Part shown: in pieces, positions 28,224 to 43,440 of the stretch
Numbering within the stretch: the first letter of the stretch is position 1
How the letters are laid out: the number at the start of each line of letters is the position of its first letter
Origin: Aliishimia ponticola
GTDB lineage: Bacteria; Pseudomonadota; Alphaproteobacteria; Rhodobacterales; Rhodobacteraceae
Direction of reading: 5' to 3'
Assembly (NCBI RefSeq): GCF_004803475.1
Contig: NZ_SRKY01000005.1
Span: 248,001-312,000 of the forward strand
DNA: 64,000 nucleotides
Translations under genes and position numbers: made by a program
The notes under the pieces: generated by a model
What the model was told of the DNA's origin: nothing
Seen by the model: only the letters and a program-made list of their open reading frames with translations
Database searches by the model: none

Positions 28224-28452
28224 GGGCCTGTATTCCCTCAAAGCCCGCACCGCCGATGCCAATCCGAATGATGGGGCTGTTCGGTCCTTTCACCTGTTCG
28301 CGGGTCAAGTGGACAATCTGACCAGAACGCCCTGCCGCGATGCCGGTGTGCCGCGACAAGTTGGACAGATTGCGCTTTGAGGCATGAATGGGGCTGGTCT
28401 CCCACTTAGCAAGCTGACAGTTTCCCATTCGAGAGAGGGAGGCATTCGGCGG
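28224..28452. other. Promoter/leader region of the tup operon, no gene seen
   Basis: 229 bases between the clpB terminator and tupB. No credible coding frame: the open minus-strand frame here continues antisense through tupB. TGGACAATCTGACCA at 28310-28324 matches 12 of 15 bases of the palindrome before the FDH operon, and a second TGGACA lies about 50 bases further on. CAATCTG and CAGATTG form an inverted repeat across that span. No recognised molybdenum/tungsten-cofactor riboswitch could be established by eye. Confidence 0.4.
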
Positions 28453-29157
28453 ATGGGCGATCTGTGGCAAGGCTTGAGTCAGGCTTTCTGGCTGGTGCTC
28501 AGCGCGGATGCCGAGCTTGTCGAAATCGCCTTTCGGTCTTTGCGGATCACGGTGTCCGCACTGGTTCTGGCCTGCCTGATCGCGCTGCCTCTTGCTGCTT
28601 TGCTTGCAGTCCGCCGGTTCCGCTGGCGCCGCGCGGTGATTGCCACGCTGAACGCCTTGATGGGGTTGCCGCCCGTTGTTGTCGGGCTGATCGTCTATGT
28701 GCTGCTGTCCCGATCTGGTCCGCTTGGGGCATTGGGGCTGCTGTTTACGCCGACGGCGATGATCGTCGCGCAGATGATCATTATCGTGCCGCTTGTCGCC
28801 TCCATCGCGCACCAGTCGCTTCGGGATCTTTGGCAGGAATATCACGACCTGCTCATTTCGTTGAACGTCACCCAGCGGCAGAAAATCGCGACCTTGCTGT
28901 GGGATTCGCGGCGGGCGTTGCTGACGGCGGCGCTGGCGGGTTTTGGCCGTGGCATTGGCGAGGTCGGTGCGATCATGGTCGTGGGCGGGAATATCGACAA
29001 TTACACGCGCGTGCTGACCACGGCCATCGCGCTTGAGACTGGCAAAGGCGAATTCGCGCTCGCACTGGCGCTGGGCTTTGTCCTGATTGCGCTGGCCATC
29101 GCGGTGAACCTCGTCATTCACTGGTTGGGCCGCACAGAACGGGAGGGCGCGTGGTGA
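28453..29157 (+). CDS. tupB: Tungstate-type ABC transporter permease TupB
   Basis: 234 residues from the ATG at 28453 (MGDLWQGLSQAFWLV); an earlier in-frame ATG at 28384 lacks a good Shine-Dalgarno. Inner-membrane permease with five to six helices and the EAA-type cytoplasmic loop (HDLLISLNVTQRQKIATLLW), followed by GFGRGIGEVGAIMVVGGNI, characteristic of TupB/PstC-like oxyanion permeases. First of three overlapping genes, permease-ATPase-binding protein. Tungstate specificity rests on the TupA-type binding protein and overall similarity; molybdate cannot be excluded. Confidence 0.88.
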   Translation: MGDLWQGLSQAFWLVLSADAELVEIAFRSLRITVSALVLACLIALPLAALLAVRRFRWRRAVIATLNALMGLPPVVVGLIVYVLLSRSGPLGALGLLFTPTAMIVAQMIIIVPLVASIAHQSLRDLWQEYHDLLISLNVTQRQKIATLLWDSRRALLTAALAGFGRGIGEVGAIMVVGGNIDNYTRVLTTAIALETGKGEFALALALGFVLIALAIAVNLVIHWLGRTEREGAW

Positions 29158-29870
29158 GCGACCTGTTTCCGCTGACCGTTCGGGACGCCGTCGCATCGCG
29201 CCAAGGCAAGCGGCTTGTCGGGCCCGTGAACCTTGATCTGAGCGGGCAGGGTGCCTGCGTGGTTCTGGGGCCGAACGGGTCTGGCAAGACCACCTTGCTG
29301 CGGCTGCTGCATGGAATCGCGCGATTGAACAAGGGACAGATCACGTGGTCCTGCCCAAAGGCAGAGGCGCAGCGCAGGCAGGCCTTCGTGTTTCAGCATC
29401 CGGTGATGCTGCGCCGGTCGGTCCTCGACAATCTGGCTTATCCGCTTTTGCTGCGCGGCGTGCCGCGAAAGTCGGCTCAGACGGAGGCCGCCAAAATGGC
29501 GGAGCGGATCGGGGTGTCGCAGATGCTGGACCGGCCTGCGCGTGTTTTGTCGGGCGGAGAGCGGCAGAAAGTGTCGCTGGGCCGTGCCCTGATATGCAAG
29601 CCTGACCTGCTGTTTCTGGATGAACCCAGCGCGTCGCTTGATGGGCGTGCCACGCGCGAGATCGAAGACATTTTGCAATCCGCGAAGTCCGCCGGAACCG
29701 CGCTGATCCTTGCCACGCATGACATGGGACAGGCGCGACGGCTGGCGGATCGGGTCGTGTTCCTGCTGGGCGGGCAGGTGCATGAAGAGGGCACCGCGAC
29801 GGATTTCTTCGCGCGCCCCAAGACACAGGAAGCCGCCGCTTTTTTGAAAGGAGACATTGTCGAATGCTAA
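29154..29870 (+). CDS. tupC: Tungstate-type ABC transporter ATP-binding protein TupC
   Basis: 238 residues from the GTG at 29154, which overlaps the tupB stop (GTGA) and is seven bases behind GGGAGG; a GTG one codon earlier is less well spaced. ABC ATPase with Walker A GPNGSGKT, Q-loop VFQHPVMLRRSVLDN, signature LSGGERQK, Walker B LLFLDEPSA and switch His (LATHD). No C-terminal MOP/TOBE regulatory domain of the ModC kind, in keeping with Tup rather than Mod systems. Overlaps tupA by seven bases. Confidence 0.9.
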   Translation: MSDLFPLTVRDAVASRQGKRLVGPVNLDLSGQGACVVLGPNGSGKTTLLRLLHGIARLNKGQITWSCPKAEAQRRQAFVFQHPVMLRRSVLDNLAYPLLLRGVPRKSAQTEAAKMAERIGVSQMLDRPARVLSGGERQKVSLGRALICKPDLLFLDEPSASLDGRATREIEDILQSAKSAGTALILATHDMGQARRLADRVVFLLGGQVHEEGTATDFFARPKTQEAAAFLKGDIVEC

Positions 29871-30676
29871 GGAAAATCATGCTGGCCGCGAGCCTCGCGG
29901 TATGGGGTGGAATGGCGCAGGCTGCCGATGTGATGAAAATGGCCGTCACCACATCGTTCCACAATTCGGGTTTGGCAGACATCCTGCTGCCCGAGATCGA
30001 GAAAGACCTGGACCTGGAGGTTCAATTGCTGGTCGTCGGCACGGGACAGGCGCTGAAGCTAGGCCGGGCCGGGGATGTTGATGCGGTTCTTGTGCATTCG
30101 CGCGCAGCGGAAGAGGCGTTCGTCTCCGAAGGCTATGGCACGCATCGGCGCGAGATCATGTATAACGATTTCGTCTTTATCGGCCCGTCTGCCGACCCGG
30201 CAGCGATTGCCTCGGCGCAGACTGCCACCGGCGCATTGCAAGCGATTGCCGAGGCGCAGGCGGCCTTTGTCAGTCGGGGCGATGATAGCGGCACCCACAA
30301 GAAAGAGCTGTCGCTGTGGCGCGAGGCCGGGTTGGACGCGGGCGCGTTCGGCGACTGGTACCGCGCGGTTGGTGCGGGCATGGGCGCGGCGCTGAACACT
30401 GCGTCGGGGATGGATGCCTATATTCTTGCGGACCGGGCTAGCTGGCTGAACTTCGGCAACAAAGGGGGGCTGGCCCTGCTCTTTTCGGGCGACCCGGTGT
30501 TGTTCAACCAATACGCATATTTGCCGGTGAACCCGGAGCTGCACAGCCATGTCAAATCGGATTTGGTCGCGAAGCTTGAGGCTTGGCTGACAAGTCCTCG
30601 GGCGGCGGAGTTAATCAACAGCTATACGATCGGCGGCGAAACGCTTTTCGTGTTCAACGCAAAACCGGCCGGTTAG
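29864..30676 (+). CDS. tupA: Tungstate-type periplasmic binding protein TupA
   Basis: 270 residues. Signal peptide MLRKIMLAASLAVWGGMAQA with a cleavage site after AQA. The mature start MKMAVTTSFHNSGLADILLP corresponds to the TupA anion-binding TTS region, and SRGDDSGTHKKE is the second anion-binding loop typical of TupA. The ending AWLTSPRAAELINSYTIGG-ETLF is diagnostic of the family. Binds tungstate (or molybdate) in the periplasm for TupBC. Third gene of the operon. Tungstate supply would suit the formate dehydrogenase encoded 8 kb downstream. Confidence 0.88.
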   Translation: MLRKIMLAASLAVWGGMAQAADVMKMAVTTSFHNSGLADILLPEIEKDLDLEVQLLVVGTGQALKLGRAGDVDAVLVHSRAAEEAFVSEGYGTHRREIMYNDFVFIGPSADPAAIASAQTATGALQAIAEAQAAFVSRGDDSGTHKKELSLWREAGLDAGAFGDWYRAVGAGMGAALNTASGMDAYILADRASWLNFGNKGGLALLFSGDPVLFNQYAYLPVNPELHSHVKSDLVAKLEAWLTSPRAAELINSYTIGGETLFVFNAKPAG

Positions 30677-30699: not shown

Positions 30700-31179
30700 T
30701 CACTCATCCAGCGCCCCATGAATTGCGAATTGATCCAGCCCGGCTTCTTGTGGCTGGATCACCCTAAAGGCTTCGCGCACGCCTGCCTCGGTCAATTCGC
30801 GGGCGACAGTCAGCAGCGTGTTTGGCGCGTGATCTTCGCAAAGTTCGGCCATTTGCGCGATTTCTTCAGTGGCGACGGGCAGGGCGGCCTCGCGCGATGG
30901 CGCGCCGTAATAGGTGACAAAGTGCTCTGCCAGCAGCGCGGCCAAGGTCTCTACCTCTGCGTCTTCGATCATGGTGACCGCAACGAAGGTCACGCGACCA
31001 CCGGTTTCCAGCCCGAACCATCCGTTTGAAAACGCTTGCCGGGCCTTGCCGGTCAGATCGCCCTCGGTCCAGTTCGAAAACTCGAACCCGCCAGAAACGC
31101 ACCATTCGCCAGTTCGCGCAGGATTGGCGAAGACCCGCATGTCGCTTTCATCGAAATGGATCGCGCGTGCCAGTTTCAT
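30700..31179 (-). CDS. DUF6505-type conserved protein
   Basis: 159 residues from the ATG at 31179, with AAGGAG upstream, overlapping the biotin-ligase stop (ATGA). Begins MKLARAIHFDESDMRVFANP, then an aromatic-rich core (GEWCVSGGFEFSNWTEGDL) and an acidic helical C-terminus. No signal, no membrane helix, no catalytic motif recognised; the family label is from memory. Last gene of a coupled operon Mrp, biotin-ligase-like, DUF6505, so a role tied to Fe-S or FDH maturation is plausible but inferred from position only. Converges on tupA with a 23-base gap. Confidence 0.75.
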   Translation of the reverse strand: MKLARAIHFDESDMRVFANPARTGEWCVSGGFEFSNWTEGDLTGKARQAFSNGWFGLETGGRVTFVAVTMIEDAEVETLAALLAEHFVTYYGAPSREAALPVATEEIAQMAELCEDHAPNTLLTVARELTEAGVREAFRVIQPQEAGLDQFAIHGALDE

Positions 31180-31880
31180 GGCTGTCTCCTTAGCAATTCT
31201 GTCAGCGGGATCAGGCGCGTGGTGTCTGCATCCCGCAGGAGCATCCCGAAATCTTCGTCCGCGCCCAGAAACGTGCCGGTTTCGCCGTCCCAAGTTGCAA
31301 TTTCGCCCACACCATGTAGCAAACCGCGCCATTCTGCATGCAGCGGCGCGGGGCCGTCCTGTTCCCAGCGGGTGATCCAGTTCAGCGTGTGGCGGGCCCA
31401 TGCTTCGATCAGCAGGGGCGGATCGACCTCGGCACAGCCTTCCGCATACAGGGCGGTTTCGTCAGGGGTATCGCCGGGTGAATCACTGCTTGGCAGCAAA
31501 GGCAGCGTAAAGCCGACCGTCAGCCAGTCGGGCACGTCATCCGGCGTGTCCGATGCGCTCAGCACGTGGAACCGACCGCAGGATGCCCCGTTGATGCGGA
31601 TACCTCCGGCCCATTCCAGATGGACAGCGACCTCTGGCGGGGCCAGCGCACCAAGCGCGTTTTGAAATCCGACCCCGCATAGCGGCAACATGGCCATCGC
31701 CTTGCGCAACGGCACCTCGGGCGCAAAGACCAGCGCTGCTTCGATCTGAGAGGCGCCCAGAACGTAAGACACCAGTCCGGCATCACAGCCAAGCGCAGCC
31801 CGGCGGGCGGCGTGGCCCATGGCGTCTTCGCCCGCGTCCTCGCCCCACATGAGTGGCGGAAAGGTCAACGGCGCGCCCAT
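31176..31880 (-). CDS. Biotin/lipoate ligase-family protein with DUF4444 tail
   Basis: 234 residues. The core resembles the catalytic domain of biotin protein ligase (EVAVHLEWAGGIRINGASCG, with the substrate-loop pattern W-x-G-x-I-x-I-N), followed by a C-terminal DUF4444 segment (ATWDGETGTFLGADEDFGML). The classical GRGRRG biotinyl-AMP loop of BirA is not visible, so it may modify something other than biotin carboxyl carrier, or be non-catalytic. No DNA-binding domain. The start shares one base with the mrp stop, and the stop overlaps the DUF6505 start. Position beside Mrp and FDH genes is conserved as I recall it for Rhodobacterales. Confidence 0.78.
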   Translation of the reverse strand: MGAPLTFPPLMWGEDAGEDAMGHAARRAALGCDAGLVSYVLGASQIEAALVFAPEVPLRKAMAMLPLCGVGFQNALGALAPPEVAVHLEWAGGIRINGASCGRFHVLSASDTPDDVPDWLTVGFTLPLLPSSDSPGDTPDETALYAEGCAEVDPPLLIEAWARHTLNWITRWEQDGPAPLHAEWRGLLHGVGEIATWDGETGTFLGADEDFGMLLRDADTTRLIPLTELLRRQP

Positions 31881-32950
31881 CAGGCGGCACCTTTCGCCAC
31901 GAGCGCGGCGGCGATATCCTGAAACGCCTTGGCTTGGGGGCTGTCGGGCTGGCTGACCGTGATCGGTGCGCCGCCATCCGCCGCCTTTCGAATTTCCAGG
32001 TGCAGCGGCACTTCCGCCAGCAAGGGCACGCCCAGTTTCGCCGCCTCTGCCGCGACTCCGCCATGGCCGAACACATGCTCCTCATGCCCGCAATTGGAGC
32101 AGATATGCGTGCTCATGTTCTCGATCATGCCAAGGATCGGCACCTTGAGCTGATTGAACATGTCGATGCCCTTGCGCGCATCCAACAGGGCCACATCCTG
32201 CGGTGTAGAGACGATAATCGCGCCGTCGACCTCTGCCTTCTGGGCCAGCGTCATCTGCACGTCACCGGTGCCGGGCGGCAGGTCCACAAGCAGCACGTCG
32301 AGCGCACCCCATTGCACCTGCATCATCATTTGTTGCAACGCACCCATCAACATCGGACCACGCCAGACGACGGCTTGATCTTCATTCGTCATCAGCCCGA
32401 TCGACATCATCGTGACGCCATGATTGCGCATCGGCAGGATGATCTTGCCGTCCGGGCTGGCGGGGCGACCGGAGACACCCAACATGCGTGGCTGCGACGG
32501 GCCATAGACATCCGCATCAAGCAGCCCGACGCGGCGGCCTTGTTGGGCCAGCGCGCAGGCCAGGTTGGCGGACACGGTCGATTTGCCGACGCCGCCCTTG
32601 CCACTGGCGATGGCGATGATCCGGTCAACGCCGGGAATCTTCTGCGGGCCTTGCGGTTGCGCGGGACGGGAAGGTTTCAGATCGGGCGGCGGCGCTTTTT
32701 CGCTATGGCCGGTCATCACGATGTTGACCGCCCCGACACCGGGGAGCGCCTTGAGCGCTGCTTCGGCGGCGTCTTTAACGCGGGTATATGCCTCTGCCTG
32801 ACTGGGCGGGATTTCCATCACGAAGCGCACGCCGCCGTCATCTTCGACATTCAGCGCCCGGACAACGCCGGAGGCGACGATATCGCCCCCGGCCACCGGA
32901 TCGCTGATCTGTTTCAGCGTGCTTAGAACTGTGTCTCTATCAAGGGCCAA
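31880..32950 (-). CDS. mrp: Mrp/ApbC/NBP35-type Fe-S carrier ATPase
   Basis: 356 residues. N-terminal MIP18/DUF59 domain (about 1-75), Pro-rich linker, then a deviant P-loop GKGGVGKS (117-124), switch DADVYGPSQPRML, and a C-terminal CxxC (ICSNCGHEEHVFGHGG) that binds a bridging [4Fe-4S] cluster in the dimer. ApbC-type proteins transfer Fe-S clusters to apo-targets; here the neighbours include a polyferredoxin and an FDH with many clusters, natural clients. First of three coupled genes after the small DUF6494 gene (five-base gap). Confidence 0.93.
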   Translation of the reverse strand: MALDRDTVLSTLKQISDPVAGGDIVASGVVRALNVEDDGGVRFVMEIPPSQAEAYTRVKDAAEAALKALPGVGAVNIVMTGHSEKAPPPDLKPSRPAQPQGPQKIPGVDRIIAIASGKGGVGKSTVSANLACALAQQGRRVGLLDADVYGPSQPRMLGVSGRPASPDGKIILPMRNHGVTMMSIGLMTNEDQAVVWRGPMLMGALQQMMMQVQWGALDVLLVDLPPGTGDVQMTLAQKAEVDGAIIVSTPQDVALLDARKGIDMFNQLKVPILGMIENMSTHICSNCGHEEHVFGHGGVAAEAAKLGVPLLAEVPLHLEIRKAADGGAPITVSQPDSPQAKAFQDIAAALVAKGAA

Positions 32951-33208: not shown

Positions 33209-33952
33209 ATGACACTGCGTGCTTTGTGCCTTTGTTTTCTGCTGCTGCCCGCATCGCTTTTGGCGCAGGACGCCGCACAGGTCCGGCTGTTCGCGCCTCA
33301 GGTGCTGGTCGAAACTGGCTTGCTTAAACATATCCTGCCGCGCTTTACCCTCAAGACCCGTGTGAGGGTCGTCGCGGTGGCGCAACCGGATGATGCGCAT
33401 CTGTCGATCGGGGATCTTGGCACGCCTGTGTTCGAAGGCGCGGGGCAGGTCTGGCATCTGGAGGTGCGGGCCGGGGACCATGTCGGCGCGGATAAATTCG
33501 CGCGCTGGCTGCGGTCCGAGATCGGGCAGCGCACCGTCCAGGGGTTCGCGCCGGGCGGAGCCGCGCTCTTTGCTCCGCCGCAACAAGTCGCCGTGCGGGA
33601 AGAGGCCGCCACGGTCGATGGCGATGCGGCGCTGGGGCACCGTGTCAGCCACCTCAAATGCACCCGCTGTCATGCGATTGATGAGGCGACGCGCGGCTGG
33701 GGAATAGGCTCTACGCCCAGTTTTGGGGTGCTGCGCGCCATGCCCGACTGGGAGGAGCGGTTCGCCGCCTTCTTTGTGCTGAAGCCGCACGGGGCTTTCA
33801 CCCAGATCACCGACGTGACGGAGCCGTTCCCGGTCGAGCGCCCGTCGCCCATTGCGCCGATCGAACTGACGTTGGATGAGTTGGACGCCCTGCTGGCCTA
33901 TGTCGCCACCATGCCCGCTGCCGATTTGGGTAAACCCCTCGAACATCAGTGA
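33209..33952 (+). CDS. Periplasmic cytochrome c with a shrunken TupA-like N-terminal domain
   Basis: 247 residues. Signal peptide MTLRALCLCFLLLPASLLAQ. Residues about 24-75 (ETGLLKHILPRF then a VRVVAVA strand and GDLGTPVF) line up with the start of the TupA encoded 2.5 kb away (NSGLADILLPEI then VQLLVVG and GDVDAVLV). Residues about 95-122 (KFARWLRSEIGQRTVQGFAP then GGAALF) line up with the TupA end (KLEAWLTSPRAAELINSYTI then GGETLF). The roughly 150 residues between are missing. A single-heme domain follows: CTRCH at C151, C154, H155. Convergent with the polyferredoxin gene, overlapping it by seven bases. Role unknown; periplasmic electron transfer is likely. Confidence 0.75.
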   Translation: MTLRALCLCFLLLPASLLAQDAAQVRLFAPQVLVETGLLKHILPRFTLKTRVRVVAVAQPDDAHLSIGDLGTPVFEGAGQVWHLEVRAGDHVGADKFARWLRSEIGQRTVQGFAPGGAALFAPPQQVAVREEAATVDGDAALGHRVSHLKCTRCHAIDEATRGWGIGSTPSFGVLRAMPDWEERFAAFFVLKPHGAFTQITDVTEPFPVERPSPIAPIELTLDELDALLAYVATMPAADLGKPLEHQ

Positions 33953-35895
33953 TCCTTGCGATCCGAGAAGTAGTCGTCGGTCGTGCGGGGCCGCGGGCGT
34001 TCTTTCCCGGCGAATGGATTGTCGTCCGAATGAAATTGCGCATTCACACGGCAATCATCGCACATCTGGATCATCCGAAGGCGGGCCGGGTCCGAGAACA
34101 TGGAATGGCCGGTTAGTTTCTCTGTAATGCGGTCAATCGCCGATTTAGAGCCGAAAAGCGCGCCGCATTCGACACAGGCAAAGGGCTCTTCCTCGTTCAG
34201 AACCTCTTGGCGCAGCGCAGCTTCGGTCAGGTCCAGGCGGGGCGCATAGGTGATCGCATCCTCCGGGCAGACCGACGCGCATAGACCGCATTGCAGGCAG
34301 GCGTCTTCCTGAAAACGCAGCTGCGGCTTGTCAGGATTGTCACCAAGCGCACCGGCCGGGCAAAGCGAAACGCAGGACAGGCATAAGGTGCAGGCGTCGG
34401 TGTCTACCAGAACCGCGCCATAGGGCGCGCCCTCGGGCAGCGGCAGGGTGTCGGTATCCGGATGGAGCGCGCGGGCGGCTTGCCGGGTGATCTGGCGACG
34501 GGTGCCCATCGGGCGCACGGGGGTCGAAACCGGGGCCGGGGGCGCGGCATCGAACAGGGATTGCGACAGGAGGTCCGGGTCAGTCAGGTCGGCAAAGCTG
34601 ACCCTGCCTTCGCCGCCAATGGCTTGGGCAAGGGCGATCTGTGCCTGCACCGCGGCCCGGTCGGTGGAAGGGCCGGGCACAAGCGTGACATCGGCGAACC
34701 CTGCGGCAAGTGCGGCGACGATCTCGGCATGGCCGAACGCACCCAGAGCGGCGATTTCCAACGGGATCACATCGGCGGGCAGGCCGCTGCCATAGCGGGC
34801 TGCAAGGCGGATCATTTCTGCCCCGAAACTGTCATGGACCAGAAGGCGCGGCGCGGTGCCGCCCGCGTCGAGATAGGCCTTGGCAAGGGTCTGCACCCGG
34901 CGGAAGGTCAGGCCGACCGGCGGCGCGTCGTAACTGACCGCGCCCGAAGGACAGGCCGCCGAACAGGCACCGCACCCGGCGCAGATCATCGGATCGATCT
35001 GGACAACGTCGCCGTTCGGCACGATCGCCCCAGTCGGACACAGGTCGAGACAGCGGGTACAGCCGGTTTGTTCCGCGCGGGAATGGGCGCATAGCGTCGG
35101 CTCTACCCGGACATAAAGCGGCTTTTCGAAGGTGCCGACCATATGCGACGCCTCGCGGACCGCCCTGGCGACAGAAGGCGCGTGGCTGGGATCGGCGCGC
35201 AGATAGCCTTCGCGCTTTTCCGGCGCAGGAAAGAGCGGTTGCTCCCCCCTCAGGTCAAGGATGATGTCGCATTCGGATTTGCCGCCATCGCGCGGGTCCG
35301 TGAAGGTCAGCGCGCCGCGCCCGCCGGGTTGGACGGTCTGCAAGGCGTCGATAACCACGCTGAAACCGCCGAACGCGCCCTGTGCGCGGCGGAGTTTGCC
35401 CAGAACCACGTCGAATGCGCGCGTGTCTGGCACATCGGCGGCATCGGACAGCAGGACGGTAACGCCCAGATAATCCTTGAGATCCTCAGCCGCAGCCAAG
35501 GCCACGTCGGCGGGGCCAAGGATCAGACACAGCCCTTCGGAGAGGACGTCGATGCTTTTGCCGGGCTCTGCGGGCAATTGCGCCTCGGCCACGAGGGCGG
35601 ACATTTTGGGTAGTGTCGGGCGTTGGTCCTGCGTCCAACCGGCCCGATCGCGCAGGTCAAGCAGTGGCGGTGCGGGATGGCCCAGATCGCCTGCCAGATC
35701 TTCGAAAACCCGCGCTTCCTGTGTGCAGCAGAAAATTGTGTCACCGGCTGCAACGGCCTTGGCCGCGACGTCGATCTGGCGGGTACATAGTGCCTCGCAG
35801 GGGGGCGGGACGTCCAATCCGGTGGTGTGGGCCAAGCTTTCGGTGTCGATCGTCTGCGTGCCTAAACAAGTGCATGTTATCAACGTCTTGGTCAT
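33946..35895 (-). CDS. Polyferredoxin (four 4Fe-4S motifs) of the FDH locus
   Basis: 649 residues, cytosolic. Two ferredoxin pairs are visible: CTRCLDLCP and CAGCGACSAACP near residues 275-320, then CTLCLSCVSLCP and CLQCGLCASVCP near 505-560. A C-terminal CVECG ... CDDC set could bind zinc or another cluster. The N-terminal third (about 1-260) is Cys-containing (CTCLG, CEALC, CC) with a Rossmann-like segment and unknown role. Proteins of this type sit beside DUF3305/DUF3306 and formate dehydrogenase genes in proteobacteria; a part in FDH maturation or electron delivery is inferred. Divergent from the DUF3305 gene. Confidence 0.88.
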   Translation of the reverse strand: MTKTLITCTCLGTQTIDTESLAHTTGLDVPPPCEALCTRQIDVAAKAVAAGDTIFCCTQEARVFEDLAGDLGHPAPPLLDLRDRAGWTQDQRPTLPKMSALVAEAQLPAEPGKSIDVLSEGLCLILGPADVALAAAEDLKDYLGVTVLLSDAADVPDTRAFDVVLGKLRRAQGAFGGFSVVIDALQTVQPGGRGALTFTDPRDGGKSECDIILDLRGEQPLFPAPEKREGYLRADPSHAPSVARAVREASHMVGTFEKPLYVRVEPTLCAHSRAEQTGCTRCLDLCPTGAIVPNGDVVQIDPMICAGCGACSAACPSGAVSYDAPPVGLTFRRVQTLAKAYLDAGGTAPRLLVHDSFGAEMIRLAARYGSGLPADVIPLEIAALGAFGHAEIVAALAAGFADVTLVPGPSTDRAAVQAQIALAQAIGGEGRVSFADLTDPDLLSQSLFDAAPPAPVSTPVRPMGTRRQITRQAARALHPDTDTLPLPEGAPYGAVLVDTDACTLCLSCVSLCPAGALGDNPDKPQLRFQEDACLQCGLCASVCPEDAITYAPRLDLTEAALRQEVLNEEEPFACVECGALFGSKSAIDRITEKLTGHSMFSDPARLRMIQMCDDCRVNAQFHSDDNPFAGKERPRPRTTDDYFSDRKDH

Positions 35896-35960: not shown

Positions 35961-35995
35961 CCACAAAGGCGACGGGGCGGCAATCGCTTTTGTGG
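35961..35995. repeat. 12-base-pair hairpin in the polyferredoxin leader
   Basis: CCACAAAGGCGA and TCGCTTTTGTGG pair over 12 positions (one G-U on the plus strand) around an 11-base loop. It would lie in the 5' leader of the minus-strand polyferredoxin transcript, about 65 bases before its ATG. Confidence 0.5.
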
Positions 35996-36092
35996 CGCGG
36001 TGCGTGGCTGCGGCTGACCCGGTGCAGCCGGTTGAGTGCCGAGTGATTCGCTTGCTGCGGCGCGGCAGGGATTCCGAGTGTTTTTGTAGGGT

Positions 36093-36107
36093 TGGACAAT
36101 TCGTCCA
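36093..36107. promoter_or_regulatory. Candidate FDH-operon operator
   Basis: TGGACAATTCGTCCA, arms of five bases with a five-base spacer, between the divergent polyferredoxin and DUF3305 genes. A 12/15 match occurs before tupB. Binding protein unknown; the NtrC-like regulator at the end of the locus is one possibility. Confidence 0.4.
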
Positions 36108-36240
36108 GCAGCGTGTCGGGGAGTCGATTGGTTCGGCCAAATTGACCGCCGTTGTACGGTTTCCGCGCATTCTACACAGAAAAGAGTTCTCGTCGGCGCG
36201 TTCTCGCATACTATTGTATTCAAGGGAGAAAGGTTTCTGG

Positions 36241-36804
36241 ATGATCCACAATCCGAAGGCGTATCGTGCTGTTCCGGTAGGCGTCGTGTTGCGACGTGTG
36301 CCCGGCGTGACGCGTTGGCGAAAGTGGAGTTGGTCCGCCAGTGCGGTTCTTCCCGGTGCCGCCCCGGCGCAATGGCGCGAATTGCGCCGCGAAGGCGACG
36401 CGGTGGAGTACCACGCGGATACCGTACAGCTTGAACTTCATGGCGCGGAGGCGGAGGCGTATCAGCACGGGCTCGGCTCGAAGGTGCCCAGTGTCTATGT
36501 GGTGATGCGCGAAAGCGGAGGGGAACATCCGCTGGAAATCGTGCTGGTCACGGCGTCGCCCTATGAGGCGCAGGACTACACCGATAGCGGCGAGGAAATC
36601 GTCGAAAAGGTGCCCATGCCGGCGCAGCTTCGCGGCTTGATCGAGGATTTCGTAGCGGAATTTTACCAAGAGGAAGCTTTTGTTAAGCGCAAGCGTGACA
36701 AGAAGCGCGTGGATCTGGTGCAGGATGGCGTCGGTGATCCGCGGATTGGCAAGGCTGCGGATATCTATGCCTCTCCCGCGCAACTAAGGAGACGTGTCCA
36801 TTGA
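36241..36804 (+). CDS. DUF3305 domain protein of the FDH locus
   Basis: 187 residues from the ATG at 36241, preceded by GAAAGG; the frame extends upstream but into the regulatory region. Conserved core YRAVPVGVVLRRVPGVTRW followed by WRKWSWSASAVLPGA, and the typical EAEAYQHGL ... PSVYVVMR. The DUF3305 family is found almost only beside formate dehydrogenase genes, usually followed by DUF3306 as here (TTGA overlap). Cytosolic; the C-terminus is Lys/Arg-rich. Likely an assembly factor; biochemical role unknown. First gene of the FDH operon. Confidence 0.9.
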   Translation: MIHNPKAYRAVPVGVVLRRVPGVTRWRKWSWSASAVLPGAAPAQWRELRREGDAVEYHADTVQLELHGAEAEAYQHGLGSKVPSVYVVMRESGGEHPLEIVLVTASPYEAQDYTDSGEEIVEKVPMPAQLRGLIEDFVAEFYQEEAFVKRKRDKKRVDLVQDGVGDPRIGKAADIYASPAQLRRRVH

Positions 36805-37445
36805 GCCGCGATTTCTGGACTCGGCGCCGTCAGGCGGTGTCTGCCGAAGAGCAGGCGGAGGTCGAAGCCCTCGCGGCAGAATTGCGTGCCGAGGAAGAGG
36901 CGGATCTGGATGCGCGCAGCGATGAGGTTCTGCTGGCCGAGCATGATCTGCCCGAGCCGGAATTGCTTGAATCCCCGGATGCCGTGCGCGAGTTTTTGAC
37001 CAAGGAGCTTCCGCAACGGCTCAAGACCCGTGCACTGCGGCGCTTGTGGCGGCTCAATCCCACCTTGGCCAATCTGGACGGTCTGGTGGATTATGGCGAG
37101 GATTTCACCGACAGCGCCACCGTGGTCGAGAATTTGCAAACGGCCTATCAGGTGGGCAAGGGGATGATGGCTCATGTGCAGGCCCAGCTGGAAGCGGCGG
37201 CGGAGCCTGCCCCGGTTGAATCTGCGGCAGAGCCCGAGTCCGACCTTGCCCTGGTCGAAGGTGAAGAGGACGTAACCGAAGAGCGTCCCGAGGATGCGCT
37301 GGCCCAGGTTGATCCAGCACAAGACGCGGAGGGTGACGTCGCGCGGTCCAGCCCGGCCCCTGCGCCGGTTTTCGCAGACATGTCCGATGTCCCCGCAGAC
37401 CAACCGGCGCCCCGTCGCCGCATGACATTCGAATTCGAGGTTTGA
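36801..37445 (+). CDS. DUF3306 domain protein of the FDH locus
   Basis: 214 residues from a TTG start at 36801, behind AAGGAG and overlapping the DUF3305 stop. Starts MSRDFWTRRRQAV, followed by an acidic, Ala-rich helical stretch, then the conserved core FLTKELPQRLKTRALRRLWR and NPTLANLDGLVDYGEDFTD. The C-terminal third is acidic, Pro/Ala/Glu-rich and probably disordered. DUF3306 nearly always follows DUF3305 next to formate dehydrogenase. No enzymatic motif. Function unknown, probably assembly. Confidence 0.9.
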   Translation: MSRDFWTRRRQAVSAEEQAEVEALAAELRAEEEADLDARSDEVLLAEHDLPEPELLESPDAVREFLTKELPQRLKTRALRRLWRLNPTLANLDGLVDYGEDFTDSATVVENLQTAYQVGKGMMAHVQAQLEAAAEPAPVESAAEPESDLALVEGEEDVTEERPEDALAQVDPAQDAEGDVARSSPAPAPVFADMSDVPADQPAPRRRMTFEFEV

Positions 37446-37449
37446 GCGT

Positions 37450-38064
37450 ATGAACGAAGACGCCACCATGACTGCCCCAGCCGTGAGTGAAGAGGATCGG
37501 CTGCGCGCCGACCTTTACAACTTTCTGGGTTTGATCCTGTCGCGGCCCCCCGATGACATGGTGCTGGACCAGACACGCGGGCTGAGCGGTGATGACAGCC
37601 CCATGGGCGAGGCGATTTCGGCCTTGGCGAAAGTGGCGCAACTGTCCAAGCCGCGCAGTGTGGAAAGTGAATACAACAAGCTGTTCATCGGTCTTGGGCG
37701 CGGTGAATTGCTGCCCTATGCCAGTTATTACCTGACCGGGTTTCTGAACGAAAAACCGTTGGCCAGTTTGCGTCGGGACATGGGGGCCGAAGGATTGGCG
37801 CGGGCTGAAAACGTGTTCGAGCCGGAAGACAACATCGCCAGCCTGATGGAAATGATGGGCGCTTTGATCGTCGGCCGCTTTGGTGCGCCGGCGGATCTGG
37901 CCCGTCAAAAGACGTTCTTCAACCGGCATATCGGTCCTTGGGCGGGGCATTTCTTTACCGATCTGGAAGCGGCGAAGAACTCTGTCTTTTACGCGCCGGT
38001 CGGTGCCGTTGGTCGCATCTTCATGGAGATCGAGGCCGAGGCGTTCCGTTTGGGCGCAGAGTGA
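37450..38064 (+). CDS. TorD/DmsD-family molybdoenzyme chaperone
   Basis: 204 residues, all-helical, with the family motif PYASYYLTGFLNEKPLASLR near residues 90-110 and a C-terminal HIGPWAGHFFTDLEAAKNSVFY. TorD-type chaperones bind the Tat leader of an apo-molybdoenzyme, protect it, and delay export until the cofactor is inserted. The obvious client is the Tat-leader FDH alpha subunit encoded just downstream. Sits four bases behind the DUF3306 stop, so cotranscribed. Confidence 0.92.
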   Translation: MNEDATMTAPAVSEEDRLRADLYNFLGLILSRPPDDMVLDQTRGLSGDDSPMGEAISALAKVAQLSKPRSVESEYNKLFIGLGRGELLPYASYYLTGFLNEKPLASLRRDMGAEGLARAENVFEPEDNIASLMEMMGALIVGRFGAPADLARQKTFFNRHIGPWAGHFFTDLEAAKNSVFYAPVGAVGRIFMEIEAEAFRLGAE

Positions 38065-38450: not shown

Positions 38451-41400
38451 ATGCTTAGGAAAAAGACCAACGGGGTTGCGCGACGCCCCCAGCGGACTTC
38501 GATCCTGTCCGAGGCGGCAAACACCTCGGTTGACCGACGCGCGTTCCTGCGCGGATCGGGTCTGGCCATCGGCGGTCTGGCGGCAATTGCCGGAACCGGT
38601 GGCACGGTGGCCCCTGCAAACGCGGCCACAGCGGCGGCGACAGGTGCTGTCGAGTTGAAGAAATCCGTATGCACGCACTGTTCTGTCGGGTGTACCGTCA
38701 TCGCAGAAGTGCAGGACGGTGTCTGGACCGGGCAAGAGCCGGGCTGGGACAGCCCGTTCAACCTTGGTTCCCACTGCGCGAAAGGCGCATCGGTGCGCGA
38801 GCACGCTCATGGTGAACGTCGCCTGAAATACCCGATGAAGAAAGAGGGTGGTGAGTGGAAGCGCATCAGCTGGGAACAAGCCATCGACGAAGTCGGCAAT
38901 GGCATGATGTCGATCCGCGACGAAAGCGGCCCTGACAGCGTCTATTGGCTTGGTTCGGCCAAGCATAACAACGAACAAGCCTATCTGTTCCGCAAGTTCG
39001 CCGCCTATTGGGGCACGAACAACGTGGATCACCAGGCGCGGATTTGCCATTCGACCACGGTTGCGGGCGTTGCGAATACATGGGGCTACGGCGCCATGAC
39101 CAACAGCTACAACGACATTCACAAGTCGAAGGCGATCTTCATCATCGGCGGCAACCCGGCAGAGGCGCACCCTGTCTCGCTGTTGCACGTTTTGCGCGCG
39201 AAAGAGCAGAACAACGCGCCGCTGATCGTGTGTGACCCGCGCTTTACCCGCACGGCGGCCCACGCGGATGAATATGTCCGCTTCCGCCCCGGCACCGATG
39301 TGGCGCTGATCTGGGGTATTTTGTGGCACATCTTCGAAAACGGTTGGGAGGACAAAGAGTTCATCCGCACCCGTGTTTGGGGGATGGACCAGATTCGCGA
39401 GGAAGTCGCCAAATGGACCCCCGAAGAGGTAGAGCGCGTCACCGGCACGCCCGGTAGCCAGCTCAAGCGCGTTGCGCGGACCATGGCGAACAACCGTCCG
39501 GGCACCTTGATCTGGTGCATGGGTGGCACGCAGCACACCAATGGCAACAACAACACGCGTGCCTATTGCGTGCTTCAGCTTGCGCTGGGCAACATGGGCA
39601 CCGAAGGCGGCGGCACCAACATTTTCCGCGGCCACGACAACGTGCAAGGTGCAACCGACCTTGGCGTTCTCAGCCACACGCTGCCGGGCTATTACGGCCT
39701 GTCCGCAGGGGCATGGGCGCATTGGAGCCGTGTCTGGGGTGAAGATGCCGATTGGTTGAAAAGCCAGTTTGCCAGCACCACCGGCGCGGATGGCAAGGAA
39801 AAGTCCCTTCAGAACCTCACCGGTATTCCGGTGTCGCGCTGGATCGATGGTATCCTTGAAGATGCCGACAACATCGACCAGCCGAACAATGTTCGGGCGA
39901 TGGTCTTGTGGGGGCACGCGCCGAACTCGCAAACCCGGATGACGGAAATGAAAACGGCGATGGAAAAGCTCGACATGCTTGTCGTGATCGATCCCTATCC
40001 GACCGTTTCCGCCGTGCTGCATGATCGCACCGATGGGGTTTATCTGCTGCCGGCCTGTACGCAGTTCGAAACGCATGGCTCTGTCACCGCGTCGAACCGG
40101 TCGCTGCAGTGGCGCGAACAAGTGGTCGATCCGCTGTTCGAGTCGAAGCCCGATCACGAGATCATCGGCCTTTTCGCACAGAAGTTCGGTTTCCACGACC
40201 GTTTGTTCCGCAACATCAAGCTGGAAGATGATGGCATCACGCCAAACATCGAGGACACGACGCGCGAGTTCAATCGCGGCATGTGGACTGTCGGCTATAC
40301 CGGGCAAAGCCCGGAGCGGATCAAGCTGCACATGGCAAACCAGCACACCTTCGACCGCACGACGCTTCAGGCAGTGGGCGGCCCGGCGGATGGCGATTAC
40401 TACGGTCTGCCCTGGCCCTGCTGGGGAACGCCGGAGATGAACCATCCCGGTACGCCGAACCTGTATGACCTGTCGAAACCGGTCTCTGAAGGCGGGCTGC
40501 CTTTCCGGGCGCGCTTCGGCGTTGAACGGAATGGCGACAACCTGCTGGCGGAAGGCGTCTATTCGGCGGGCTCGGATATTCAGGACGGATATCCCGAGTT
40601 CACCTATCAGATGCTGGTCGATCTTGGCTGGGATGGCGAACTGACGGATGAAGAGCGTCGTTCCATCGCCATGGTCGCGGGGATCGATATCTCGGAAGAA
40701 GGCACCCATCAGGGTCTGTCGTCCAGCAACGGAGCGCAGGGCGCCGATGAGGAGGTGGGCGAACAGTCCATGTCGCCATTCCCGTCCGACTTCAATGCGA
40801 AGGCCTCTGGCGTCAACTGGAAGACCGACCTGTCAGGCGGTATCCAGCGGGTTGCGATTGCGCATGAATGTGCGCCCTTTGGCAATGCCAAGGCACGGGC
40901 CGTGGTATGGACCTTCCCGGATCCGGTGCCGCTGCACCGCGAGCCGCTCTATACCAACCGCCGTGATCTGGTTGAGGACTATCCGACCTATGACGACCGG
41001 AAGTTCTATCGTCTGCCGACGATGTATGCCTCGATCCAGAAGAACGACTTCAGCAAGGATTACCCGATTATCCTGACCTCTGGTCGTCTTGTGGAATACG
41101 AGGGTGGCGGCGACGAAACCCGATCGAACCCGTGGCTTGCAGAATTGCAGCAGGACATGTTCGTCGAAATGAACCCGCGTGACGCCAATAACCTTGGTGT
41201 GCGGGACGGCGCGCAAGTCTGGGTCGAAGGGCCGGAAGGGGGCAAGGTCAAGGTTATGGCCATGGTCACCAACCGGGTGGGCGAGGGCGTGGCCTTCATG
41301 CCCTTCCACTTCGGTGGCCACTATCAGGGTGAGGATCTACGGTCCAAATACCCGGATGGGGCCGACCCCTATGTGCTGGGTGAATCGACCAACACCGCCC

Positions 41401-41474
41401 AAACCTATGGCTATGACTCGGTAACGCAGATGCAGGAGACCAAAGCGACTCTCTGCAAGATCTGGGCCGCGTAA
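38451..41474 (+). CDS. fdhA: Formate dehydrogenase alpha (catalytic) subunit, Cys type
   Basis: 1007-residue molybdo- or tungstopterin enzyme oxidising formate to CO2 in the periplasm. Tat signal with R29-R30 (VDRRAFLRGSGLAIGGLAAI). N-terminal [4Fe-4S] ligands C74, C77, C81 and C109 (VCTHCSVGC ... GSHCAKGA). The metal ligand is Cys199 followed by the conserved catalytic His200 (ARICHSTTVAGVANTWGYG), so no selenocysteine is used. The C-terminal cofactor-binding domain runs from about 870 (PIILTSGRLVEYEGGG). AAGGAGGG precedes the ATG. Followed at 14 bases by the beta subunit. Tungsten rather than molybdenum is possible given tupABC. Confidence 0.96.
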   Translation: MLRKKTNGVARRPQRTSILSEAANTSVDRRAFLRGSGLAIGGLAAIAGTGGTVAPANAATAAATGAVELKKSVCTHCSVGCTVIAEVQDGVWTGQEPGWDSPFNLGSHCAKGASVREHAHGERRLKYPMKKEGGEWKRISWEQAIDEVGNGMMSIRDESGPDSVYWLGSAKHNNEQAYLFRKFAAYWGTNNVDHQARICHSTTVAGVANTWGYGAMTNSYNDIHKSKAIFIIGGNPAEAHPVSLLHVLRAKEQNNAPLIVCDPRFTRTAAHADEYVRFRPGTDVALIWGILWHIFENGWEDKEFIRTRVWGMDQIREEVAKWTPEEVERVTGTPGSQLKRVARTMANNRPGTLIWCMGGTQHTNGNNNTRAYCVLQLALGNMGTEGGGTNIFRGHDNVQGATDLGVLSHTLPGYYGLSAGAWAHWSRVWGEDADWLKSQFASTTGADGKEKSLQNLTGIPVSRWIDGILEDADNIDQPNNVRAMVLWGHAPNSQTRMTEMKTAMEKLDMLVVIDPYPTVSAVLHDRTDGVYLLPACTQFETHGSVTASNRSLQWREQVVDPLFESKPDHEIIGLFAQKFGFHDRLFRNIKLEDDGITPNIEDTTREFNRGMWTVGYTGQSPERIKLHMANQHTFDRTTLQAVGGPADGDYYGLPWPCWGTPEMNHPGTPNLYDLSKPVSEGGLPFRARFGVERNGDNLLAEGVYSAGSDIQDGYPEFTYQMLVDLGWDGELTDEERRSIAMVAGIDISEEGTHQGLSSSNGAQGADEEVGEQSMSPFPSDFNAKASGVNWKTDLSGGIQRVAIAHECAPFGNAKARAVVWTFPDPVPLHREPLYTNRRDLVEDYPTYDDRKFYRLPTMYASIQKNDFSKDYPIILTSGRLVEYEGGGDETRSNPWLAELQQDMFVEMNPRDANNLGVRDGAQVWVEGPEGGKVKVMAMVTNRVGEGVAFMPFHFGGHYQGEDLRSKYPDGADPYVLGESTNTAQTYGYDSVTQMQETKATLCKIWAA

Positions 41475-41488
41475 GGAGGAGTAAGAGA

Positions 41489-42082
41489 ATGGCTAGAGCA
41501 AAATTTCTCTGTGACGCCGAGCGCTGCATCGAGTGCAATGCCTGTGTCACTGCGTGCAAGAACGAGCACGAGGTTCCGTGGGGGATCAACCGCCGTAGGG
41601 TGGTAACGATCCAAGACGGCGACCCCGGCGAACGCTCGATCTCTGTCGCGTGTATGCACTGTTCGGACGCGCCCTGTATGGCGGTGTGTCCGGTCGACTG
41701 CTTCTATCAGAACGAAGAAGGCGTGGTGCTGCACTCCAAGGATCTGTGCATCGGTTGCGGATACTGCTTCTATGCATGCCCCTTCGGCGCGCCGCAGTTC
41801 CCGCAAGCGGGCAATTTCGGATCGCGCGGCAAGATGGACAAATGCACCTTCTGCGCTGGCGGACCGGAGGAGAACCACTCCACCGCCGAGTTCGCCAAAT
41901 ACGGCCGCAACCGGATCGCCGAGGGCAAGCTGCCCATCTGCGCCGAGATGTGTTCCACCAAAGCCCTGCTGGCGGGGGATGGCGACGTGGTGTCGGCCAT
42001 CTACCGTGAGCGCGTTGTTGCCCGTGGCTTCGGCTCGGGCGCATGGGGCTGGGGCACGGCCTATGATCAGAAAGGTGGCTGA
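41489..42082 (+). CDS. fdhB: Formate dehydrogenase beta (iron-sulfur) subunit
   Basis: 197 residues with four 4Fe-4S motifs: CIECNACVTACK, CMHCSDAPCMAVCP, CIGCGYCFYACPFGAPQ and a split fourth set (CTFCAGG ... ICAEMC). Passes electrons from the alpha subunit to the membrane cytochrome b. Unlike E. coli FdnH it has no C-terminal membrane helix. Ends 158 bases before the gamma gene, a gap filled with four tandem hairpins. Confidence 0.96.
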   Translation: MARAKFLCDAERCIECNACVTACKNEHEVPWGINRRRVVTIQDGDPGERSISVACMHCSDAPCMAVCPVDCFYQNEEGVVLHSKDLCIGCGYCFYACPFGAPQFPQAGNFGSRGKMDKCTFCAGGPEENHSTAEFAKYGRNRIAEGKLPICAEMCSTKALLAGDGDVVSAIYRERVVARGFGSGAWGWGTAYDQKGG

Positions 42083-42099
42083 TTGCCGTGACTGATAGC

Positions 42100-42128
42100 C
42101 GGGCGCGCGGAACTTTTCCGCGCGCCCG
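42100..42128 (+). repeat. fdhB-fdhC intergenic hairpin 1
   Basis: CGGGCGCGCGGAA, loop CTT, TTCCGCGCGCCCG: a perfect 13-base stem beginning 17 bases after the fdhB stop. The strongest of four consecutive hairpins. Followed by CACC rather than a T-run. Confidence 0.85.
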
Positions 42129-42140
42129 CACCTCCGGTGG

Positions 42141-42164
42141 CGGAATTTTCATTGGAAAATTCCG
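42141..42164 (+). repeat. fdhB-fdhC intergenic hairpin 2
   Basis: CGGAATTTTC, loop ATTG, GAAAATTCCG: a perfect 10-base stem. Its GGAA/TTCC base recurs in the neighbouring hairpins. Confidence 0.85.
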
Positions 42165-42167
42165 GGC

Positions 42168-42188
42168 CGGAAACTTTCAGAGTTTCCG
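42168..42188 (+). repeat. fdhB-fdhC intergenic hairpin 3
   Basis: CGGAAACT, loop TTCAG, AGTTTCCG: a perfect 8-base stem, three bases after hairpin 2. Confidence 0.8.
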
Positions 42189-42191
42189 TGT

Positions 42192-42212
42192 CATTTTCCG
42201 TGTCGGAAAATG
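42192..42212 (+). repeat. fdhB-fdhC intergenic hairpin 4
   Basis: CATTTTCCG, loop TGT, CGGAAAATG: a perfect 9-base stem, 28 bases before the fdhC ATG. TTTCCGTGTC occurs twice in direct orientation across hairpins 3 and 4. Confidence 0.8.
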
Positions 42213-42240
42213 GCCGCATCAATTGAGACTGAGGATAGCC

Positions 42241-43440
42241 ATGCGAGCCCTTCTCTCCCTGTTCGTCGCAATTTTTCTGGCGGTCACCGCCACCGCGCAA
42301 GAGGCCCCGCCTGCACCGGACCGGTCCGCAACCGGCGGCGCGCAAACGCTTGAGGACATCCTCGCACGCCAGCGGGGCGAGAGTATCGACGACAGCTTCC
42401 GGCGCGACAATATCGGCGACCCGGACAGTGCTGCCGGAATTGCGCAGCAATTGGGCACGCTTGGTGGCGCGTCTGACCCCGAATTGTGGCGCGCGCTGCG
42501 CTACAACGAAGCTGATATTTCCGTTTCTGCTGGTGGAGACGTTGCCAAAGTGCTCGTCCAGTCCGGCGGCATGGCATGGTATGAATTCCGCCGCGGTCCG
42601 CTGATCACTTATGGCGCGTATTTGCTGCTTGGCACGATGATCGCGTTGATCCTATTCTATACGATGCGGGGCCGTGTTCCGATCGACGGGCCCAAGTCAG
42701 GCCACACCGTCACACGCTTTCAGTTCATAGAACGCTTTGCCCATTGGCTGCTGGCGGGGTCTTTCCTGCTGCTCGCCTTCACCGGGCTGTTCGTGCTGAT
42801 GGGCCGCTTCTTCATCGCGCCGCATTTCGGGCCGGGCTTCAATGCCAGCCTGTTGGCGGGGTCGAAGTTCATTCACAACAACGTCTCGTGGGCCTTCATG
42901 ATCGCGCTGGTCATGGTCTTTGTCTTCTGGGTTATTCACAATCTTCCCGACAGGACCGACCTGAAATGGATCGCGCAAGCCGGCGGCATCGTCGGAAACA
43001 ATCACCCCCCCGCCAAGAAGTTCAACGCAGGGCAAAAGGTTATCTTCTGGTCGGTCATCCTGCTGGGCGCTTCGATCAGCGTCTCCGGGATTTCGCTGCT
43101 CTTCCCGTTTGAGTTGCCGCTCTTTGCCAAGACCTTCGGCATTCTCAACGGATGGGGTGTCAATGAATGGATCGGCATGGCGCCCTTCCCGACATCCCTG
43201 TCGCCGCAAGAGGAAATGCAGTTCGCGCAAGCGTGGCACGCCATTGTCGCGTTCGTCCTGATGGCGATCATCATCGGCCACATTTATATCGGCACCGTCG
43301 GGATGGAGGGGGCCTTCGACGCGATGGGTACGGGCGAGGTCGACGAAGCCTGGGCGCATCAGCACCACTCCATCTGGTTCGAGGAGTTGAAGGAAGAAGG
43401 CCGCGCGGACACTTCCGGCAAGGCGACTCCGGCGGAGTAG
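42241..43440 (+). CDS. fdhC: Formate dehydrogenase gamma subunit, cytochrome b556
   Basis: 399 residues from the ATG at 42241; upstream in-frame codons lie in the hairpin array. Signal peptide (MRALLSLFVAIFLAVTATAQ), a periplasmic extension of about 95 residues without known domain, then five predicted helices. Heme-ligand histidines are visible in RFAHWLLAGSF, KFIHNNVSW, QAWHAIVAF and IIGHIYIG. Transfers electrons from FdhB to quinone and anchors the periplasmic FDH. Much longer than E. coli FdnI (about 217 residues) because of the N-terminal extension, a feature of the non-enteric FDH3-like enzymes. Confidence 0.94.
   Translation: MRALLSLFVAIFLAVTATAQEAPPAPDRSATGGAQTLEDILARQRGESIDDSFRRDNIGDPDSAAGIAQQLGTLGGASDPELWRALRYNEADISVSAGGDVAKVLVQSGGMAWYEFRRGPLITYGAYLLLGTMIALILFYTMRGRVPIDGPKSGHTVTRFQFIERFAHWLLAGSFLLLAFTGLFVLMGRFFIAPHFGPGFNASLLAGSKFIHNNVSWAFMIALVMVFVFWVIHNLPDRTDLKWIAQAGGIVGNNHPPAKKFNAGQKVIFWSVILLGASISVSGISLLFPFELPLFAKTFGILNGWGVNEWIGMAPFPTSLSPQEEMQFAQAWHAIVAFVLMAIIIGHIYIGTVGMEGAFDAMGTGEVDEAWAHQHHSIWFEELKEEGRADTSGKATPAE

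Follow-up and report, generated by a model that had tools for sequence, protein, structure and literature searches.

The binding protein of the tungstate ABC transporter, TupA, is built of two lobes with a cleft between them. According to the accessible part of PMC5517513, lobe A contributes the ligands Thr9-11, Ser12 and His59 and lobe B contributes Arg118, Thr124 and Asp170; lobe A comprises residues 2-76 plus 201-251, and the structure 3muq is assigned to TupA in the same paper. A fusion of a binding protein with a cytochrome c has been described in Methylacidiphilum, where XoxGJ (cytochrome cGJ) is the redox partner of the XoxF methanol dehydrogenase (PMC8498564, as far as accessible); such a XoxGJ fusion is also reported in the available text of PMC8170126, where a role in cofactor insertion is proposed for XoxJ. 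DUF3305/DUF3306 proteins and NarJ-type chaperones have been tied to fdh operons (PMC4464133), and the accessible portion of that paper makes no mention of the cytochrome considered here.

We analyzed a gene that joins a trimmed TupA domain to a monoheme cytochrome c inside a formate dehydrogenase (FDH) locus. Profile, fold and alignment evidence support this architecture, which is real, unusual and characteristic of a conserved family, and agree with an earlier interpretation made from the letters of this DNA (the sequence-only reading) that had proposed it. "The window" below means the whole stretch of 64,000 nucleotides that was analyzed.

The fusion gene and its locus

The main features of the window are the following.

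33209..33952, + strand: TupA-lobe/monoheme cytochrome c fusion protein (ORF of 247 aa; family alignment A1 of 38 rows)
33209..33268, + strand: probable Sec signal peptide, residues 1-20 (hydrophobic N-terminus in the sequence; helices 2-21 in the model)
33272..33583, + strand: TupA lobe A module, residues 22-125 (two hhalign matches at E 6e-8, checked against controls; pLDDT; VIA-align Z 14.8 to 5my5)
33620..33949, + strand: monoheme c-type cytochrome domain, residues 138-247 (CTRCH 151-155; Pfam Cytochrom_C; invariant His194 as candidate distal ligand)
33946..35895, - strand: protein with several 4Fe-4S motifs, convergent, with a 7-bp overlap with the fusion gene
31880..32950, - strand: Mrp/ApbC-type Fe-S carrier ATPase, divergent, on the other flank of the fusion-gene slot
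35992..37445, + strand: DUF3305 and DUF3306 proteins of the FDH cluster
37450..38064, + strand: TorD/NarJ-type chaperone (PF02613, 1.5e-30)
38451..43440, + strand: formate dehydrogenase alpha, beta and gamma (cytochrome b) subunits (TIGR models; beta by position)
28384..30676, + strand: TupB, TupC and TupA of a tungstate ABC transporter (NF041773, ABC_tran, NF041772)

The open reading frame at 33209-33952 starts with a hydrophobic N-terminus, continues with a domain of about 100 residues and ends with the heme domain, which carries CTRCH at 151-155; the signal peptide was called from sequence and model, without a signal-peptide predictor. The tupA gene of the window (29864-30676) ends 2.53 kb upstream of the fusion gene. 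Relatives were collected into two alignments: A1 contains 38 of the 42 loci available at that stage (L015, L016, L017 and L037 were excluded) and A2 contains 47 of 49 rows (L133 and L134 were excluded). Both domains are under purifying selection, with a median dN/dS of 0.114 (0.016-0.402) for the lobe and 0.055 (0-0.272) for the heme domain over the 55 pairs left after identity and dS filters, which are not independent of each other.

The neighbourhood is that of a respiratory FDH. The alpha subunit matches TIGR01591 (2.7e-144, under the curated cut-off), the gamma subunit exceeds the cut-off of TIGR01583 with 136.7 bits, and the beta subunit was called from its position and cysteine pattern only; TupA (NF041772, 173.5 bits) and TupB (NF041773, 176.1 bits) are both under the curated cut-offs and TupC was recognized by ABC_tran. 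Titled genome records were scanned with the A1 alignment and the best 80 of 537 relatives were taken, contig ends cutting several of these loci. Among these best 80, 79 have the Fe-S protein, 77 have Mrp, 77 DUF3306 and 75 FdhA, and homologues of TupA and of TupB are each present in 40.

Some further features of these loci deserve mention. Downstream of FdhC, at 43497-44825, the window encodes a WD40 beta-propeller/cytochrome c fusion, a second scaffold-cytochrome fusion inside the same FDH cluster; of the best 80 of 537 relatives, 59 have a homologue. A biotin/lipoate ligase-family protein with DUF4444 (31176-31880) and a DUF6505 protein (30700-31401) are kept in 77 and 76 of the same 80 loci, respectively. 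In two Ruegeria loci (L087 and L092) no Mrp homologue was found at the usual slot, though most of the cluster is there.

TupA ancestry of the N-terminal domain

The sequence-only reading had noticed two separated segments matching the beginning and the end of TupA, quoting peptides that are indeed present in the fusion protein: ETGLLKHILPRF at residues 35-46 and RWLRSEIGQRTVQGF at 99-113, followed by GGAALF at 116-121. A pairwise BLASTP comparison with the TupA of the window is near chance (best E 0.047); the two sequences by themselves are thus insufficient as proof and family profiles have to decide. The NCBIfam model for TupA, NF041772, matches the fusion protein faintly (residues 11-68, E 0.16, 11.3 bits) and detects 19 of the 38 A1 members at the lax threshold of E<=10, with a best E of 5.1e-4 that is far under the 400-bit curated cut-off; this cut-off is missed by the fusion protein and by the window TupA alike. 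When the A1 profile was compared with the PDB, the top matches were 3muq (1.4e-4), 3cvg (1.5e-3), 5my5 (1.7e-3) and 3lr1 (5.9e-3), of which 5my5 and 3lr1 are TupA and 3cvg is a putative metal-binding protein. In the matches of 3muq and 5my5 to the A1 profile both end segments are in the correct order, the weaker segment alone being not significant.

The strongest evidence comes from comparing the two families directly. Sets of 62 TupA rows and 82 lobe rows (matches with 80 percent coverage and no stop) were aligned by hhalign and gave two non-overlapping, ordered matches with E 6.0e-8 and 6.2e-8, in which lobe columns 3-40 map to TupA 21-58 and lobe columns 40-104 map to TupA 197-264. Control comparisons of one reversed and ten column-shuffled lobe alignments with TupA gave E 0.067-0.39, and the lobe compared with 17 further profiles from the locus, some built from just 4-7 rows and one being the heme domain of the fusion itself, gave E 0.033-0.53. 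The TupA stretch missing from the fusion is about 138 residues (59-196), close to the loss of about 150 central residues that had been claimed. Moreover, the A1 profile matches both ends of TupA-size open reading frames in several genomes of the class (for example G303 and G381), and all 17 both-end loci that were tested (L135-L151) were recognized as TupA homologues when searched by tblastn with the window TupA.

The predicted structure leads to the same result. AlphaFold gives block-mean pLDDT values of 90-98 over residues 21-120, and among 1000 chains compared by VIA-align the Desulfovibrio TupA 5my5 ranks first (Z 14.8, 2.0 A, 104 residues, 25 percent identity), the matched range of 2-251 including both ends of that chain. 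The runners-up are 3muq (Z 12.9), 3cvg (Z 12.4) and the ModA 7t4z (Z 11.9), and ranks 6 and 7 are occupied by 3kn3 and 3lr1, which are TupA or TupA-assigned like 5my5 and 3muq. Foldseek with the whole chain also puts 3muq and 5my5 on top, in this order, at no better than E 6.2e-3 and 7.5e-3. The cleft between two lobes that defines TupA is absent from the model, which shows a single lobe corresponding to about the published lobe A. A fold unlike a type II periplasmic-binding-protein lobe, or a profile match of residues 20-125 to an unrelated known domain, had been set beforehand by the sequence-only reading as an outcome speaking against the proposal; the predicted fold is one such lobe, and the proposal withstood the test.

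The N-terminal domain thus descends from TupA, with lobe A kept and lobe B gone. That the resemblance reflects convergence or chance on a short alpha/beta domain is hardly credible: the weak pairwise E value, the modest whole-chain Foldseek scores and the fit of other type II binding proteins such as ModA could be cited for it, but both ordered profile matches lie at E 6e-8, with all controls above 0.03, and the TupA structures take the two top structural ranks as well as ranks 6 and 7. Profile and fold results together argue strongly against it.

Heme domain, distribution and history

The C-terminal part is a c-type cytochrome domain, as the sequence-only reading had stated from the CTRCH motif, and the CxxCH signature is invariant in 38 of 38 A1 rows. 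Pfam Cytochrom_C (PF00034) is found in 31 of the 38 A1 members at E<=10 (best E 6.1e-5), and on the fusion protein itself it scores 17.7 bits, under the 21.3-bit cut-off. The residues C151, C154, H155 and H194 are invariant in all 38 A1 rows, which were found without any motif filter. A PH motif at H194 occurs in 142 of 142 matches (112 distinct) of a relaxed scan, a count partly biased by the search patterns, because many of these loci come from the titled-record scan, where one of the two patterns contains PH; A1 is free of this bias. An earlier count of the histidine in 111 rows had required the PH motif in its pattern, a requirement that the relaxed scan dropped. A conserved methionine that could be the class I distal ligand was not found among the 111 rows, where no column exceeds 41 percent Met. 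Since H194 is invariant and no such methionine column exists, bis-histidine ligation of the heme by H155 and H194 is likely, the role of His194 being read from its conservation. The heme domain modelled without its heme is poor (mean pLDDT 74.8) and its best fold match weak (Z 3.9); cytochrome fold matches under Z 4 were disregarded. A kinship with the bis-histidine cyanobacterial cytochrome c549/PsbV was considered and rejected: the full-length profile matches in the PDB (E 0.043 and 0.06) vanish after removal of the CxxCH region, on which they consequently rest.

In a protein search of 248 sampled genomes of the bacterial family, the cytochrome was matched in 93, and the lobe in 91 of these; G005 and G079 match in the heme part only, and in G127, G192 and G268 the match is partial or in two pieces. 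In two of these (G192:C44 and G268:C86) the fusion match is split in two within one open frame, which suggests an insertion or strong divergence within the lobe. Among 289 genomes of the class, full-length fusions were found in four of the same family and in one outside it (G533); among 398 genomes of the phylum, at E 1e-15, 10 match, of which seven belong to the same family and the three others match over the heme part alone; and 36 of 121 genomes of the order match, all of the same family, G956 over the heme part alone. The best 80 of 537 relatives carry Rhodobacteraceae-type names (Paracoccaceae, Roseovarius, Ruegeria, Tateyamaria, Mameliella and others), apart from some metagenome bins of Alphaproteobacteria and the unexpected label Enemella. 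The record with this label (L110, titled Enemella evansiae), which we take to be an actinobacterial name, contains a Rhodobacteraceae-type FDH locus with the same coordinates as G003:C5 and is probably mislabelled.

The linkage to FDH that the earlier interpretation had proposed to survey is close. The DUF3306 marker is present in 120 of the 248 genomes (TupA in 169), and in 92 of the 93 cytochrome-matching genomes versus 28 of the 155 others; in 89 of the 93 the fusion gene lies 2.99-4.03 kb from DUF3306. Four genomes are exceptions: G009 and G127 are limited by their contigs, and G005 and G079 have lobe-less copies on marker-free contigs, in which no other FDH genes were found in the 15-19.5 kb fetched. 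Against strict linkage counts the sole full fusion outside the bacterial family (G533, L160), which has DUF6505, the ligase-family gene and Mrp on one flank, with no FDH gene in the 13 kb fetched. Conversely, the 28 genomes with DUF3306 that give no cytochrome match indicate that the gene is optional and that FDH can do without it; 20 of them were opened and no member of the cytochrome family was found in the opened stretches. In two loci that lack the cytochrome (L165 and L167) the gap between Mrp and the Fe-S gene is about 220-245 bases.

Lobe-less relatives of the heme domain adjoin FDH genes in four genomes of other families (L153, L154, L155 and L158), and the one of L154 occupies the identical slot between Mrp and the Fe-S gene; in L156, L157 and L159 none of the FDH genes of the window was found in the stretch. 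Since lobe-less relatives occupy FDH loci in other parts of the class, the lobe was probably a later addition. A tree of 48 heme domains clusters the lobe-less rows (3 changes versus an average of 8.5 after shuffling), but it is poorly resolved and its long branches are unsure. The simplest history, which we prefer without taking the tree as proof, is that an old FDH-linked cytochrome acquired a TupA lobe in the ancestry of this family and that a few losses followed. In L153 (G353) about 1 kb separates the lobe-less cytochrome from a TupBCA set, and the WD40-cytochrome and fdhCBA adjoin it, an arrangement that could possibly picture the pre-fusion state.

The donor does not look to have been the TupA next door; the sequence-only reading had proposed a duplicated tungstate-binding protein. 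An origin from that neighbour is not supported by the lobe profile, which scores 13.7 bits on the window TupA versus 34-45 bits on six more distant TupAs (L105, L098, L064, L076, L177 and L153); those of L043, L044 and L051 score 17-27 bits, and the median over the 39 TupAs at least 60 percent identical to that of the window, itself included, is 21.9 bits. These nine rows were picked individually, and the others were considered as the top twelve and as medians. Because 17 of the 62 TupA loci had been found by the A1 profile, the medians are biased, and we therefore rely on the six named proteins: those of L105, L098, L064 and L076 lie beside fusion genes, L177 was opened for DUF3306, and L153 was opened for its cytochrome, yet its TupA also matched A1.

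Ligand site, possible function and known systems

The ligand site of TupA has been lost. The TTS core of the lobe-A motif is present in 60 of 62 TupA rows versus 0 of 82 lobe rows, and the region carrying the lobe-B ligands Arg118, Thr124 and Asp170 is absent from the fusion. Nine other residues (G37, P44, R45, F46, L48, K49, G71, G106 and G117) never vary across the 82 lobe rows. Three of them, R45, L48 and K49, do not belong to the residues that TupA conserves at 90 percent, which points to a conserved surface or contact and makes them a candidate contact face.

On this basis we propose that the protein carries electrons for the periplasmic FDH as an optional partner that docks through its lobe, a proposal to which we give an even chance. 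Probable export, a heme and close linkage to FDH make an accessory electron carrier the best reading, and since the metal-gripping motif is lost, the lobe has probably been retained for docking or as a structural element rather than for sensing. A periplasmic monoheme cytochrome c would have belonged to the cluster of a tungsten/molybdenum formate dehydrogenase, and in one alphaproteobacterial lineage its N-terminus would have acquired lobe A of a TupA-type tungstate-binding protein. The lobe, presumably no longer binding tungstate, would fold independently and act in protein-protein docking, holding the heme beside the periplasmic FDH or another redox partner. Electrons from formate oxidation could then reach the periplasmic cytochrome pool through the cytochrome, in parallel with the quinone route via the gamma subunit. 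The cytochrome would be an optional accessory, as suggested by the 28 of 120 marker genomes that do without it. A point against this reading is that the FDH has its own cytochrome b subunit, so that a c-type acceptor is not required.

The sequence-only reading had offered oxyanion sensing as the alternative to simple docking; in such a sensor the lobe, alone or as a dimer rebuilding the two-lobed cleft, would bind tungstate or molybdate and tune electron transfer by the heme. The clear TupA ancestry is compatible with this idea, as are the match of all 93 cytochrome-matching genomes to TupA and the TupA homologues within the fetched flank of 40 of the best 80 of 537 relatives, but TupA is no marker of the cytochrome, being present in 27 of the 28 genomes with DUF3306 and without it. 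With lobe B, its ligands and the TTS motif lost, sensing in the manner of TupA is unlikely, and we hold the sensor as a whole to be highly improbable. The lobe could instead dock on the permease TupB, with which its ancestor works, and couple tungstate import to the periplasmic redox state or to the status of FDH; this is quite unlikely. TupB homologues are near in half of the same 80 loci and lacking from the fetched flank of the other 40, some of which are cut by contig ends, docking residues are not identifiable, and the lobe seemingly does not come from the adjacent TupA. A broader idea, that a one-lobe redox docking module keeps the contact face of TupA and would hold a bis-histidine heme against either the tungstate permease (redox-gated import) or the tungsten enzyme, thereby coupling metal supply and formate oxidation, is a long shot.

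A passive role, in which the lobe would aid folding and solubility or cytochrome biogenesis and have no specific partner, is doubtful and yet the most serious of these alternatives to docking. Relatives at similar loci live without the lobe, which has roughly double the median dN/dS of the heme domain; on the other side, R45, L48 and K49 are invariant in every lobe row without being among the 90-percent TupA residues, and the lobe is retained in 91 of 93 matching genomes.

Compared with TupA (5my5, 3lr1, 3muq; NF041772), the fusion shares the fold of lobe A, the SGL...LP near the N-terminus and the ..WL.S...I..F...G..LF at the end of the module, and differs in having one lobe, a replaced TTTS motif and an appended heme domain. 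The lobe-less cytochromes have the same heme domain with STPSF and PH motifs and the same linkage to FDH, but in them a short N-terminal stretch leads straight into the heme domain, with no TupA lobe. The WD40-cytochrome c is likewise a cytochrome c with an added scaffold domain at the same locus; its scaffold, however, is a beta-propeller and its cytochrome c is more conventional, with a GSKMPMQ motif whose methionine we take to be the heme ligand.

No description of a single-lobe TupA-cytochrome fusion was recognized in the accessible part of the open-access PMC literature. Binding proteins are usually recruited whole, whereas here one lobe has been kept, has lost its ligand motif and has been coupled to a heme domain, and the resulting conserved family is linked to a tungsten/molybdenum enzyme. 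The fusion offers a clean way to test whether one lobe by itself can act as a docking module, and also to test for a second, cytochrome c exit for formate electrons in the respiratory FDHs of these Alphaproteobacteria. The nearest precedent that we found is XoxGJ of Methylacidiphilum, likened by description and not by sequence, in which a periplasmic binding-protein domain is also fused to a c-type cytochrome and the fusion works for a periplasmic dehydrogenase. The partner of XoxGJ is the XoxF methanol dehydrogenase and its cytochrome is of the cL type, whereas the annotated neighbours of our fusion gene form an FDH cluster; moreover, the binding-protein part is here a single lobe, in contrast to XoxJ, which we assume to be a complete two-lobed protein.
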